DNA of 64,000 nt from Blastococcus litoris (lineage in GTDB: Bacteria; Actinomycetota; Actinomycetes; Mycobacteriales; Geodermatophilaceae). A model generated the notes under the pieces. The model was not told where the DNA came from. It did no database searches and saw only the letters and a program-made list of their open reading frames with translations. The position numbers and the translations under genes were made by a program. Positions within the stretch are counted from its first letter, which is position 1. Each line of letters starts with the position of its first letter. This document shows, piece after piece, positions 44,532 to 50,346 of the stretch. The stretch covers positions 62,001 to 126,000 of the forward strand of contig NZ_QCZF01000011.1 in assembly GCF_003075095.1 (NCBI RefSeq), written 5' to 3'.

Positions 44532-44670
44532 GCGCTGCTCCTCGATGGCACTCGTCGACCGGCTCGCCCCGCACGTTCGCGGGCACGGTCATTCTGGCAG
44601 GCCCCGGCGCCGGACACCGGGCGAGGTGGCGCGGCGACGGCGCGCCGCGGCCTCGGGAAGGATGCCACCC

Positions 44671-45867
44671 GTGAGTTCACCCCGTCAGGTCACGCTGCTC
44701 GGCTCCACCGGCTCGATCGGCCGGCAGGCCATCGCCGTCGCCGTCCAGAACCCCGACCGGCTGCAGATCACCGGTCTGGCCGCCGGGGGAGGGGACGTCG
44801 CCCGGCTCGCCGAGCAGGCGCTGGCCCTCGGCGTGCGCACCGTCGCCGTCGCCCGCGCGACCGCGGCGCAGGACCTCCAGCTGGCCTTCTACGCCGAGGC
44901 ATCCCGGCGGGGCTGGGCCAAGGGGGAGTACTCGCTGCCCGAGATCCTGGCCGGTCCGCGGGCAGCGGAGGAGCTCGCCGCCCGCCCGGCAGACGTCGTC
45001 CTCAACGGGATCACCGGCTCCATCGGCCTCGGGCCCACCCTCTCGGCCCTGCGCGCCGGCCGCACCGTGGCGCTCGCGAACAAGGAGTCGCTCGTCGCCG
45101 GAGGCGTGCTCGTCACCGAGGCCGCGGCGCCGGGGCAGCTGGTGCCGGTGGACTCCGAGCACTCGGCGCTGGCCCAGTGCCTCCGGGGCGGTGCGCGCGA
45201 CGAGGTCGCCCGCCTCGTCCTGACCGCGAGCGGCGGCCCGTTCCGCGGACGCACCGTCGACCAGCTCGCGGACGTCACCGTCGAGCAGGCCCTGGCCCAC
45301 CCGACGTGGGACATGGGACCCGTCGTCACGATCAACTCCGCGACGCTGGTCAACAAGGGGCTCGAGCTGATCGAGGCGCACCTGCTCTTCGACGTCCCGT
45401 ACGCCGACATCGACGTCGTGGTGCACCCGCAGTCGATCGTCCACTCGATGGTGACGTTCGCCGACGGCGCGACCATCGCGCAGGCGAGCCCGCCGGACAT
45501 GCGGCTGCCGATCGCCCTCGCCCTCGCCTGGCCGGACCGGCTGCCCGTCGTCCAGCCGGCGCTGGACTGGTCCACGGCGAGCTCCTGGGAGTTCTTCCCG
45601 CTCGACGAGGCCGCCTTCCCCGCCGTCCGCCTGGCGCGAGCCGCCGGCGAGGCCGGCGGGGTCGTCCCGGCGCTCTACAACGCCTCGAACGAGGAGGCCG
45701 TGGCCGCCTTCGTGGCGGGTCGCCTGTCGTTCCGGGGCATCGTCGACCTCGTCGCGCGTACCCTCGACGACGCGCCGGACCTCGGCGTCCCCACCTGCGT
45801 CGAGGACGTCCTGGCGGCGGAGAAGTGGGCCCGGGAGCACGCCCGGGCGGTCATCGCCGGAGGCTGA
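44671..45867 (+). CDS. dxr: 1-deoxy-D-xylulose 5-phosphate reductoisomerase
   Basis: Second enzyme of the MEP isoprenoid pathway (DXP to MEP, NADPH), 398 aa. NADPH loop [24 protein letters not shown]; metal and substrate residues [61 protein letters not shown] 44671 has GGAAGGA 8 bases upstream; ATG 44662 overlaps that sequence and is less likely. GGAGG at its 3' end serves rip1. Confidence 0.96.
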
Positions 45868-45868
45868 A

Positions 45869-47236
45869 CTGAGCGGGATCCTGCTGAGCGTCCTGGGGAT
45901 CGTCGCCTTCGCGATCGGGCTGCTCTTCTCGATCGGCTTCCACGAGGCCGGGCACTTCTTCTGGGCGCGCAAGTTCGGCATGCGCGTGCCGCAGTTCATG
46001 GTCGGCTTCGGCCCGACGATCTTCTCGCGCAGGCGCGGCGAGACGGAGTACGGCATCAAGGCCGTCCCGCTGGGCGGTTACATCCGCATCGTCGGGATGA
46101 TCCCGCCCGCCGAGGAGGGCGAGAGCAAGCGCGCCACCCGCATGCGCAGCTTCATCGCCGAGGTGCGCGGTCAGGCGCTCAACGACGTCCTGCCGACGGA
46201 CGGCGACCGGGTCTTCTACAAGAAGCCCTGGTGGCAGCGGGTGGTCGTCATGTTCGCCGGGCCGTTCAACAACCTGGTCCTGGCGGTCCTCTTCTTCACC
46301 ATCGTGCTCACCGCCTTCGGCGTGCCCGAGCCGTCGACGACCATCGAGCGGGTGCCCGGCTGCGTGCTGCCCGCCGGCGCGCAGAGCGCCGGCGCGGACG
46401 ACCCCTGCTCGGTGCCGATCACCGCGGCGGGGCAGACCTGCGAGCTCGGTGACGCCGGGTGCGCGCTGCCCGAGCGGAGCCCCGCGGCCAAGGCCGGGCT
46501 CCTCCCGGGCGACACGATCGTGGCCATCGACGGCGATCCGGTCCCGCAGGAGACGGAGGTCGGCTGGGACCAGGTGCAGCGGACCATCCAGCAGAGCCCC
46601 GGCGAGCCGGTCGTCTTCACCGTCGAGCGCGACGGCGAGGAGCGGGAGCTCACCGTCACCCCGATCGAGAACACCGTGTACGCCTCCGCCGAGGGCACCG
46701 AGACCAGGGTCGTGGGCTACGTCGGCATCGGCCCGACGCAGCCCTACGTCCAGCAGTCGGTCACCGCGGTCCCCGGCTTCCTCGGCGACTACGTGGTCGC
46801 CTCGGTCGACCGGCTCGTCGAGATCCCGCAGAAGATCCCGGCCCTGTTCCGCGCCGCCTTCCTCGGCGAGGAGCGCGACCCGCAGGGCCCGATCGGAGTC
46901 GTCGGGGTGGGCAGGATCTCCGGCGAGATCTTCGCGCTGGAGGACTACACGACCACCGAGAAGATCAGCACGTTCTTCCAGCTGCTGGCCGGCGTGAACC
47001 TGGTGCTGTTCCTGTTCAACCTGCTGCCGATCTACCCGCTCGACGGCGGTCACGTGGCCGGGGCGCTCTACGAGAAGGCCCGCTCGACGGTCGCCCGGCT
47101 GCGCGGGCGGCCCGACCCCGGCCCGTTCGACATCGCCCGGCTGATGCCGGTCGCCTACGCCGTGGCCGGTGTCTTCCTGGCGCTGTCGGCGCTGCTGTTC
47201 GTCGCCGACATCGTCAACCCGATCACCCTGGGCTGA
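45869..47236 (+). CDS. rip1: Site-2 membrane metalloprotease (Rip1/RseP family), probable CTG start
   Basis: 455-aa intramembrane zinc protease that cuts anti-sigma factors and other membrane proteins. Helix 1 holds HEAGH at 25-29; PDZ region roughly 115-215 (SPAAKAGLLPGDTIVAIDGDPV); LLPIYPLDGGHVAGALYE supplies the Asp zinc ligand; last helix at the C terminus. An insert with four Cys precedes the PDZ. No ATG, GTG or TTG is in frame before ATG 45980, which lies after HEAGH. CTG 45869 has GGAGG at 45859-45863 and gives MSGILLSVLGIVAFAIG, exactly where relatives start. One base separates it from the dxr stop. Confidence 0.93.
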   Translation: MSGILLSVLGIVAFAIGLLFSIGFHEAGHFFWARKFGMRVPQFMVGFGPTIFSRRRGETEYGIKAVPLGGYIRIVGMIPPAEEGESKRATRMRSFIAEVRGQALNDVLPTDGDRVFYKKPWWQRVVVMFAGPFNNLVLAVLFFTIVLTAFGVPEPSTTIERVPGCVLPAGAQSAGADDPCSVPITAAGQTCELGDAGCALPERSPAAKAGLLPGDTIVAIDGDPVPQETEVGWDQVQRTIQQSPGEPVVFTVERDGEERELTVTPIENTVYASAEGTETRVVGYVGIGPTQPYVQQSVTAVPGFLGDYVVASVDRLVEIPQKIPALFRAAFLGEERDPQGPIGVVGVGRISGEIFALEDYTTTEKISTFFQLLAGVNLVLFLFNLLPIYPLDGGHVAGALYEKARSTVARLRGRPDPGPFDIARLMPVAYAVAGVFLALSALLFVADIVNPITLG

Positions 47237-48096
47237 ACCGGGCGGGAGGCGACGAGCACCCCGGCGACCACCAGGACGCCGGCGGCCAGCTCGACGGGGT
47301 CGAGCACCTCGCCGAAGGCCACCCACGACGCGAGCACGCCGACCACCGGCACGAGCATCGAGAACGGCGCCACGACGTTCGACGGGTGCCGGGACAGCAG
47401 CACGTTCCAGATGCTGTATCCGATCAGCGTCGCGACCACGACCACGTAGAGCAGGCCGAGCACCGAGGGCAGCGCGTCGACGGTGAGGACGCCGGCCAGC
47501 GACCGGCCGATGCGTCCGGGCCCCTCCACGACCAGCGCGAGGCCCAGCATGGGCAGCGGGGGCACCACGGCGGTCCAGAGCGTGAGGTGCAGCGCGTTAG
47601 GGGCCTCGGCCCGCCGGCTGCAGACGTTGCCGATCGCCCAGCCCAGGGCGCCGCACAGGGTCAGGACGACGGGGAGCCACGCCGCCGACTGCGCGCGGTG
47701 GACGGCGATGACCGCGAGCCCCGCGACGGCCACCGCGACGCCGGCGAACTGGCGCATCGACAGCTTCTCGTGCAGCCAGATGCCGGCGATCACGACGGTG
47801 AACGGGGCCGAGGCCTGGAGGACGAGCGAGGCCAGGCCGCTGGGCATCCCCGCGGCCATGCCGAGGTACAGGAAGGTGAACTGCAGGATCCCGATGCCGA
47901 CCCCCACGCCGAGCAGCCAGCGAAGCGGCACGCGCGGACGCGGCACGAGCAGCAGGGTCGGCACGGCGACCAGCGCGTAGCGCAGCGCCACCATGAACAG
48001 CGGCGGGAAGTGCTCGAGCGCCAGGGCGGTCGCCGGGAAGTTCATTCCCCAGCAGACGGCGACGAGGCAGGCGAGGAGGCGGTCGCGGAGGGGCAC
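47155..48096 (-). CDS. EamA/DMT-family transporter
   Basis: 313 aa, ten membrane helices in two EamA repeats (VAVCWGMNFPATALALEHFPPLFMVALRY; then LCGALGWAIGNVCSRRA). Likely exporter of metabolites or amino acids; substrate unknown. GTG 48096 gives the standard N terminus (PLRDRLLACL); longer starts would run into the divergent LysR gene. The stop TAG lies 82 bp inside the converging rip1 gene, giving a ~32-residue polar tail overlapping antisense. Divergent from the LysR gene, its probable regulator. Confidence 0.9.
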   Translation of the reverse strand: MPLRDRLLACLVAVCWGMNFPATALALEHFPPLFMVALRYALVAVPTLLLVPRPRVPLRWLLGVGVGIGILQFTFLYLGMAAGMPSGLASLVLQASAPFTVVIAGIWLHEKLSMRQFAGVAVAVAGLAVIAVHRAQSAAWLPVVLTLCGALGWAIGNVCSRRAEAPNALHLTLWTAVVPPLPMLGLALVVEGPGRIGRSLAGVLTVDALPSVLGLLYVVVVATLIGYSIWNVLLSRHPSNVVAPFSMLVPVVGVLASWVAFGEVLDPVELAAGVLVVAGVLVASRPVQPRVIGLTMSATNSSADSARKTPATA

Positions 48097-48168
48097 GTGC
48101 TCGAGCCTCGGGGTCCGTGCGATGAAGGACAAGCACGATCTGACGAACCGACCTTGTAGCGTTGCTTC

Positions 48169-49110
48169 ATGGTCGATCGCGCGTCCGGGCTGTGGGACCG
48201 GGTCGACGTCGCGCACCTCGCCGTCCTGCGGGAGGTCGCCGAGCAGGGCTCCGTCAGCGGGGCCGCGCGGGCGGCGGGCATGTCGCCGTCAGCGGTGTCC
48301 CAGCAGCTCAAGGTGCTCCAGCGCCGGCTCGGCCTCGTCCTCGTCGAGCGGGTCGGGCGCGGGGTGCGCCTCACCGATGCCGGGCGGGAGCTGGCCGGCA
48401 TCGCCACGACGGTCTCGACCGCGCTGGCGGCCGCGGCGGCCGAGTGGCAGAGCTACCACGGTGCGGTCCGGGGCACGGTGCGGGTGGCGACGTTCCACTC
48501 CGCCGGAGAGCTGCTGGTGCCGGGCCTGCTGGAGCGGATGGCCGCGCACCCGGACGTGGCCGTGGAGACCGTCGACGAGGACGTCTCCCAGGACGACTTC
48601 GCCGGGCTGACCGCGGCGTACGACATCGTCATCGCGCACCGGTCCGACGACCTGGTACCGCCCGCACGAGGCGCCGTCTCGGTCCACCCGCTGCTCCGCG
48701 AGCCGCTCGACGTCGCGCTGCCGCTGGACCACCCGCTCGCGGGGCGGTCGAGGGTCACGCCGGCCGACGTGATCGACGAGGACTGGATCGCGCCACCGGC
48801 CGGGTTCCCCATCGACCGGGTGCTGACCGCCGTCGCGGCGCAGGCGCGGTCCCCGGTCCGCGTGGTGCGCCGCACGACGCACCTGCCGCTGATGGAGAAG
48901 CTGGTCGCCCGTGGTCACGGGGTCGCGCTGCTGCCGCGGCACACCACCCGCGAGCGAGCGGAGGGGCGGTTCGCGCTGGTGCCACTCGCCGACCTCCGAG
49001 CGGGGCGCGTCATCGAGTCGCTGGCGCGTCCTGACCGGGCCGCGCGCCGGGCCGTCCGGGTGGTGATCGACGCCCTGGTGGCGGAGGCCGCCCCGTACGC
49101 AGCGCCGTGA
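48169..49110 (+). CDS. LysR-family transcriptional regulator
   Basis: 313 aa. N-terminal helix-turn-helix (VAHLAVLREVAEQGSVSGAARAAGMSPSAVSQQLKVLQRRLGLVLVERVGRGVRLTDAG) and a C-terminal effector domain (VRGTVRVATFHSAGELLVPGLL, LVARGHGVALLP). ATG 48169. 72 bp separate it from the divergent EamA transporter; short inverted elements in that gap (ATGAAG 48122, CTTGT 48153, CTTCAT 48165) could be its site. Effector unknown. Confidence 0.94.
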   Translation: MVDRASGLWDRVDVAHLAVLREVAEQGSVSGAARAAGMSPSAVSQQLKVLQRRLGLVLVERVGRGVRLTDAGRELAGIATTVSTALAAAAAEWQSYHGAVRGTVRVATFHSAGELLVPGLLERMAAHPDVAVETVDEDVSQDDFAGLTAAYDIVIAHRSDDLVPPARGAVSVHPLLREPLDVALPLDHPLAGRSRVTPADVIDEDWIAPPAGFPIDRVLTAVAAQARSPVRVVRRTTHLPLMEKLVARGHGVALLPRHTTRERAEGRFALVPLADLRAGRVIESLARPDRAARRAVRVVIDALVAEAAPYAAP

Positions 49111-49172
49111 GTCCTCCGGCGCCCGACAGCGCACGTCACAGCCGCGCCACCGGCGCGGATGCCACGGCGGGG

Positions 49173-49178
49173 GATACT
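49173..49178 (+). promoter_or_regulatory. Possible -10 element of ispG (leaderless)
   Basis: GATACT ends 7 bases before ATG 49186, the spacing expected when transcription starts at the start codon. No Shine-Dalgarno precedes ATG 49186, which fits. No clear -35. Confidence 0.35.
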
Positions 49179-49185
49179 GGGTGTC

Positions 49186-50346
49186 ATGGCGATCCCCGTC
49201 GGTCTCGGCATGCCCGCTGCCCCTCCTCCCGTCCTCGCCCCCCGGCGGAAGACCCGCCAGCTGATGGTGGGCGGTGTCGGGGTCGGCAGTGACTTCCCGG
49301 TGAGCGTCCAGTCGATGTGCACCACCAAGACGGCGGACATCAACGCGACCCTGCAGCAGATCGCGGAGCTCACCGCGTCCGGCTGCCAGATCGTGCGCGT
49401 CGCCGTGCCCGACACCGACGACGCCGAGGCGCTGCCGATCATCGCGAAGAAGTCGCAGATCCCGGTCATCGCCGACATCCACTTCCAGCCGCGGTACGTC
49501 TTCGCGGCCATCGACGCCGGGTGCGCCGCCGTCCGCGTGAACCCGGGCAACATCAAGAAGTTCGACGACAAGGTCGGCGAGATCGCCCGCGCCGCCAAGG
49601 ACGCCGGCATCCCGATCCGGATCGGGGTGAACGCGGGCTCGCTCGACAAGCGGCTGCTCGCCAAGTACGGCAAGGCGACCCCGGAGGCGCTGGTCGAGTC
49701 CGCGCTCTGGGAGTGCTCGCTGTTCGAGGAGCACGACTTCCGCGACATCAAGATCTCGGTCAAGCACAACGACCCGGTCGTCATGGTGCGCGCCTACGAG
49801 CTGCTCGCCGCGCAGTGCGACTACCCGCTGCACCTGGGCGTCACCGAGGCGGGTCCGGCGTTCCAGGGCACGATCAAGTCCGCCGTCGCCTTCGGCGCCC
49901 TCCTGAGCCAGGGCATCGGGGACACGATCCGCGTCTCGCTGTCGGCACCTCCCGCCGAGGAGGTCAAGGTCGGCAACCAGATCCTCGAGTCGCTCAACCT
50001 GCGCCAGCGCGGGCTGGAGATCGTCAGCTGCCCGTCGTGCGGGCGGGCGCAGGTCGACGTCTACAAGCTCGCCGACGAGGTGACCGCCGGGCTCGAGGGC
50101 ATGGAGGTCCCGCTGCGGGTCGCGGTCATGGGCTGCGTCGTGAACGGCCCGGGGGAGGCCCGCGAGGCCGACCTCGGCGTCGCCTCCGGCAACGGCAAGG
50201 GCCAGATCTTCGTCAAGGGCGAGGTCGTGAAGACCGTTCCCGAGTCGCAGATCGTGGAGACCCTCATCGAGGAGGCCATGCGCATCGCGGCGGAGCAGAC
50301 GGCGGACGGGACGCCCTCCGGGCCTCCGGTCGTCAGCGTCAGCTGA
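49186..50346 (+). CDS. ispG: 4-hydroxy-3-methylbut-2-en-1-yl diphosphate synthase (flavodoxin)
   Basis: MEP pathway iron-sulfur enzyme (GcpE), 386 aa. [60 protein letters not shown]; the 4Fe-4S ligands are two Cys in [11 protein letters not shown] and one in [14 protein letters not shown] 49186 gives the usual actinobacterial [13 protein letters not shown]-like start; ATG 49159 would add nine unrelated residues. Cluster with dxr and rip1 as in Mycobacterium. Confidence 0.96.

Follow-up and report, generated by a model that had tools for sequence, protein, structure and literature searches.

CUG is usually regarded as nearly dead in bacterial initiation. According to the accessible excerpts of the studies concerned, leadered CTG codons placed after a Shine-Dalgarno sequence were not enriched in M. 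smegmatis and made up 0.03% of reads (PMC4633059), no expression was obtained from CUG reporters in either E. coli or chloroplasts (PMC9845219), and CUG initiation complexes were less stable than those on AUG, GUG or UUG (PMC11497404); a survey of 69 genomes, cited in PMC9845219, counted 20 annotated CUG starts, or 0.024% of ORFs. Examples of bacterial CUG initiation do exist, such as plasmid repA, ano (proposed) in E. coli and rpsL in Deinococcus deserti, but in the excerpts of PMC5960689 these are single cases, whereas the putative CUG start of the protease gene rip1 that we describe here is kept through nine genera. Conservation of a non-canonical start is familiar from infC, the gene for initiation factor IF3, whose AUU codon in E. 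coli underlies IF3 self-regulation (PMC9410913, as excerpted). Like infC, rip1 keeps such a start; it differs in using another codon and in having an unrelated product, and the IF3 feedback is a feature of infC. Among the open-access matches listed in our literature search, which covered the field in part, none gives CTG as the start of rip1 or of any gene in Geodermatophilaceae. In other words, single bacterial CUG starts and conserved non-canonical starts are known, and within the literature searched we did not meet the CTG codon or rip1 in such a role.

The window that we analyzed is a stretch of 64,000 nucleotides from Blastococcus litoris (NCBI RefSeq assembly GCF_003075095.1, contig NZ_QCZF01000011.1, positions 62,001 to 126,000), and its relevant features are collected in Table 1. 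At the junction of dxr and rip1, the sequence runs through GGAGG, the dxr stop codon, a single A and then CTG, with 5 bases between GGAGG and CTG. Between the nearest upstream stop in the rip1 frame, which lies further upstream than the dxr stop, and ATG 45980, this frame holds no ATG, GTG or TTG at all; it is open for 162 codons before HEAGH, and none of these is a canonical start. An ORF list restricted to ATG, GTG and TTG has rip1 begin at 45980, leaving HEAGH out, and a start there would cost the protease both HEAGH and the first helix. Since a by-eye reading of the window finds no Shine-Dalgarno sequence ahead of ATG 45980, and since HEAGH would be lost, this codon is very probably not a start. 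The preliminary description of this DNA, which proposed the CTG start, had placed GGAGG, CTG, HEAGH and ATG 45980 correctly; the lack of canonical codons that it reported extends further upstream than it had claimed, and the truncation that it expected of automated annotation, with loss of the active site, is what the restricted list for the window gives. RNA folding at the junction, examined in the window only, is nothing unusual (z 0.64 and -1.43). For dxr, an in-frame ATG is also present at 44662, and the TIGR00243 profile matches 44662-45864 with 376.1 bits, above its cut-off.

Table 1. Features of the dxr-rip1-ispG region, in window coordinates
Feature	Position	Strand	Remarks
dxr, 1-deoxy-D-xylulose-5-phosphate reductoisomerase	44671..45867	+	presumed GTG start; TGA stop 45865-45867
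Shine-Dalgarno GGAGG of rip1	45859..45863	+	within final dxr codons
CTG, putative rip1 initiation codon	45869..45871	+	one base past dxr stop; CTG in 98/99 clade rows
rip1, M50 site-2 protease with PDZ	45869..47236	+	455 aa counted from CTG; stop 47234-47236
HEAGH zinc-binding motif codons	45941..45955	+	5' of first ATG
ATG, first in-frame in rip1	45980..45982	+	conserved internal Met codon; ATG in 96/96 rows
ispG/gcpE	49159..50346	+	PF04551, 480.6 bits; third gene of dxr-rip1-ispG order

The protein itself resembles the RseP/Rip1 M50 site-2 proteases, with which it shares the M50 domain, HExxH, a PDZ domain and a first helix directly before HExxH. It matches PF02163 (M50) with 167.6 bits against a cut-off of 27.2, it is the sole match in its genome at E <= 0.001, and its PDZ domain (PF17820, at 202-254) lies between the membrane parts. 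When translated from CTG, the protein is aligned by the Pfam M50 profile from position 1; when translated from ATG 45980, from position 26 of the profile. Within the extent of the alignments shown, about 16-21 residues precede HExxH in solved homologues, compared with 24 in the window protein. With 131.6 bits, the protein does not pass the cut-off of 147.55 of TIGR00054, the NCBI equivalog for RseP, and we therefore file it as an M50/Rip1-type protease, 'Rip1-type' being the safe name; that it is Rip1 we take from its M50 domain and gene order. Between rip1 and ispG the window has genes for an EamA transporter and a LysR-type regulator (47155-49110), unlike several relatives (e.g. L002-L004 and G001), in which ispG follows close behind rip1.

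Is CTG at this position a peculiarity of one genome? We searched 112 Geodermatophilaceae genomes, found rip1 in 109 (no match in G010, G095 and G097), and read the start regions of all 109 genes. Nine genera (g1-g4, g8-g12) gave 99 readable rows, of which 98 have CTG and one (L182) has TTG, and the CTG stands at codon -24 relative to HExxH in 86 rows and at -23 in 12. This is conservation of the infC type, i.e. one and the same codon other than ATG, GTG or TTG at the homologous start. The remaining exceptions are nine rows with ATG: genus g5 has it at -24, the very codon occupied by CTG, in 4/4 rows, and genera g6 and g7 have it at -20 and/or -19, four to five codons downstream, in 5/5 rows. 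One broken copy (L089 in G011) was left out of the counts; CTG was read there by eye. This copy, also listed as L018, lies near the end of a MAG contig of 3606 bases, has a stop within helix 1, reads HEFAH instead of HEAGH, and is a case of either decay or assembly error. In a named public collection, 72 of 80 rip1 loci carry CTG (-24 in 63, -23 in 9), the others having ATG (four), GTG (two) or no motif (two, L018 and L075). A misread base at 45869, a possibility that the preliminary description had raised, is contradicted by these counts, and the ATG or GTG at the homologous position in close relatives by which it would have recognized such an error does not occur in the nine genera. CTG is thus kept in nearly all family members that we examined, although one base change would yield a normal start. 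A public record labelled 'UNVERIFIED_ORG: Bacillus sp. AZ43' (L004) has a rip1 88% identical to that of the window, and its contig appears to come from Blastococcus or a close relative rather than from Bacillus.

Outside the family, the start region is conventional. A canonical start lies between codons -32 and -15 in 29/29 loci at the class level (the best-scoring 29 of 241 other genomes with a match), and at the order level a canonical codon stands at -24 to -20 in 18/20 loci, the two without a placed start being L210 and L218; the RseP/Rip1 relatives beyond the CTG clade whose starts could be placed thus have ATG, GTG or TTG in this region, whereas the clade has CTG. In the protein tree, from which L184 was excluded as too short, a single branch (SH-aLRT 100) separates the 98 CTG-clade rows from all others. 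Counting the fewest changes, which gives minimum numbers, the start codon changes twice in 112 rows (including 5 outgroup rows), which fits one origin; within the CTG clade it changes once in 98 rows, to TTG, itself a canonical start. The direction of change does not follow from the count alone but from the ATG of the outgroup rows, and CTG was probably derived once, replacing ATG, at the base of the main Geodermatophilaceae clade.

The manner in which this codon varies also speaks to what it is. In 21 internal columns with at least 90% Leu, we count 3-25 changes per column among Leu codons, mostly between CTG and CTC, against the one change at the start, and CTC at the rip1 start is found in 0/99 rows; near-invariance so unlike the behaviour of Leu columns leads us to reject an ordinary Leu codon at 45869. 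The CTG also matches where relatives begin, and, as the preliminary description had suggested, it is very probably the rip1 start. Because a change of the first base from C to A, G or T would each give a better start, a single change in 98 rows argues for selection against stronger initiation. For comparison, the dxr start, itself presumed, changes at least 8 times in the 57 rows whose homologous codon is ATG or GTG (of 63 rows, the 6 that lack NTG there were dropped), compared with 0 changes of the rip1 start in the same rows. The ispG start is also invariant, being ATG in all 34 NTG rows (35 located, 70 rows in all), and invariance alone therefore does not say what is selected. Taken together, we are confident, from these comparisons of sequences, that CTG 45869 is the rip1 start codon and is under selection.

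The surroundings of the codon are conserved as well. Ahead of the start, at a distance of 5-7 bases, 98/99 clade rows have a Shine-Dalgarno sequence (GGAGG in 88, GGAG in 10), the exception being L195. L182 (from G093), the sole row with a change from CTG to TTG, has the weaker GGAG, as if the weaker Shine-Dalgarno compensated for TTG; this is one case only, and GGAG is found in nine CTG rows too. The dxr stop could be placed in 96 of the 99 rows (all except L112, L114 and L170): stop and start overlap as CTGA in 23, and elsewhere the first base of the stop lies 4 bases ahead of the start in 53 rows, 5 in 9 and 13-19 in 11. Taken as start position minus stop position, the spacing is -1, 4 or 5 in 85/96 rows, the closeness expected of a coupled gene pair. 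Translationally coupled ATGA/GTGA pairs have in common with dxr-rip1 a stop-start overlap or a gap of a few bases, but they overlap with an ATG or GTG start, whereas dxr-rip1 overlaps with CTG. In many relatives the junction reads CTGAGCTGAGC, a 5-base direct repeat; window positions 45864-45874 read CTGAACTGAGC. The second codon of rip1, AGC, is nearly as invariant as CTG, and together with the direct repeat it suggests nucleotide-level constraint around the start.

How might so poor a codon be used? CUG is near-inactive in reporters elsewhere, and initiation at rip1 would therefore call for coupling or other help; given a weak CUG, either coupling rescues the start or Rip1 production is very low. 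In the explanation that we prefer, initiator fMet-tRNA would start on the rip1 CUG despite a C:U mismatch, the strong GGAGG at the end of dxr would hold it on the codon, and initiation would be supplied mostly by ribosomes that have just terminated at the dxr TGA, as a ribosome leaving dxr would already be beside the Shine-Dalgarno sequence and may use a poor codon. Sequence comparison gives the position of the CTG, its conservation, the Shine-Dalgarno sequence, the spacing to dxr and the fit to one origin; from these we infer CUG use in the cell, and we lean toward reinitiation coupling to dxr as the manner of that use. Selection against a one-step change to ATG, GTG or TTG would keep the CTG, the likely reason being that Rip1 is needed at a low, fixed fraction of Dxr. 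Whether low Rip1 dosage is the selected trait is, in our estimate, an even bet: the earlier suggestion that weak initiation could keep Rip1 scarce finds support, for its direction only, in the absence of shifts toward stronger NTG codons.

Other starts of the family offer a comparison. In infC, ATC stands at the apparent start in 30/30 family loci read (L261-L290, L281 being from the window's genome), at one codon position in 25 loci and one codon further upstream in 5; it is preceded by GGAG in 29/29 loci with upstream sequence, and in one of the 30 loci there is, in addition, a GTG nine codons ahead of the motif. Geodermatophilaceae therefore seem already to use another non-canonical start, one whose type is known. 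We screened 244 gene-like pairs, drawn from 400 kb each of two family genomes, and obtained four in which CTG or ATC is shared and accompanied by a Shine-Dalgarno sequence near the onset of conservation. Only rip1 had the shared codon exactly at the onset; one pair has CTG 5 codons before it with canonical codons nearby, and two have ATC 6-7 codons after it in genes with a shared GTG. This screen, which showed no second clear case besides rip1, is coarse, as 92 of the 244 pairs (including rip1) have no placed shared canonical start; a cruder first flagging of pairs omitted rip1, probably due to an upstream GTG in one genome. With regard to decoding, mutant initiator tRNAs have been used to obtain non-AUG reinitiation in E. 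coli (PMC2268962, as excerpted). In the window's genome, one stem-loop pattern found two near-identical initiator tRNA genes (L219 and L220; G000:C8, ~9.7 kb apart), both with a CAT anticodon and GGG/CCC stem, and with these normal features we see no special decoder.

Might the trait under selection be sensitivity to IF3 rather than dosage? In this alternative, which overlaps with our preferred explanation and differs in the selected trait, abundant IF3 would lower rip1 translation, as with infC, and proteolytic signalling would follow the state of the ribosome pool. The conserved ATC of infC, seen in all 30 family loci read (37 genomes had a match), is in keeping with it, as are the E. coli data excerpted from PMC2268962, in which IF3 excess inhibits non-canonical starts and lowers reinitiation; however, any weak start would be IF3-sensitive, so that this property need not be the selected trait, and the same excerpts indicate that a Shine-Dalgarno sequence lessens the IF3 effect on reinitiation. 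We regard IF3 gating as unlikely.

Another possibility is that the CTG is the start but is merely tolerated, a strong Shine-Dalgarno sequence and tight coupling to dxr making it of no importance which base comes first in the codon and shared descent, without selection, accounting for its persistence. The near-universal Shine-Dalgarno sequence (98/99 rows), the dxr stop overlapping or at most 5 bases away in 85/96 rows and the single clade formed by the CTG rows are all compatible with tolerance. Under it, however, A, G, T and C should replace one another freely at the first position, and the one change in 98 rows, set beside the at least 8 changes of the presumed dxr start in 57 rows and the 3-25 of internal Leu columns, makes tolerance improbable.

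Could another codon serve as the start? Candidates are GTG at -39 (14/96 rows), ATC at -14 (93/96), ATG at -6 (18/96) and ATG at +13 (96/96). The upstream and -6 codons are absent from most rows, however, and 52/96 rows have no ATG, GTG or TTG from -60 (or the stop) to -10; the two widespread codons, ATC -14 and ATG +13, lie 30 and 111 bases past the CTG, beyond the reach of the Shine-Dalgarno sequence, and ATG +13 would lose HExxH. Use of any of them is very improbable. Least credible of all is a Dxr-Rip1 fusion by frameshifting or readthrough, with the CTG a plain Leu codon: in many rows the reading frame of rip1 does continue well upstream without a stop, for 162 codons in the window, but the start codon is invariant in a way that Leu codons are not, the most frequent residue at each of codons -30 to -25 occurs in just 24-60 of 96 rows, and rip1 takes every one of the three possible frames relative to dxr (63, 32 and 1 of 96 rows), an arrangement that a programmed frameshift could not serve. 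We reject a frameshift fusion.

Gene callers limited to ATG, GTG and TTG would remove the active site of Rip1 wherever the upstream sequence lacks such a codon, as it does in the window, and would miss or shift the start of infC. The rip1 CTG, kept through nine genera, lets one ask, as a natural experiment, why a weak start persists, and it offers a one-base genetic handle on coupling, IF3 and dosage. That CUG is a fixed regulatory device in Geodermatophilaceae, with rip1 translated only by reinitiating, IF3-checked ribosomes, seems doubtful to us; if true, intramembrane stress signalling in the family would be linked to both dxr translation and the fidelity of initiation, and a change from CUG to AUG would misregulate it.
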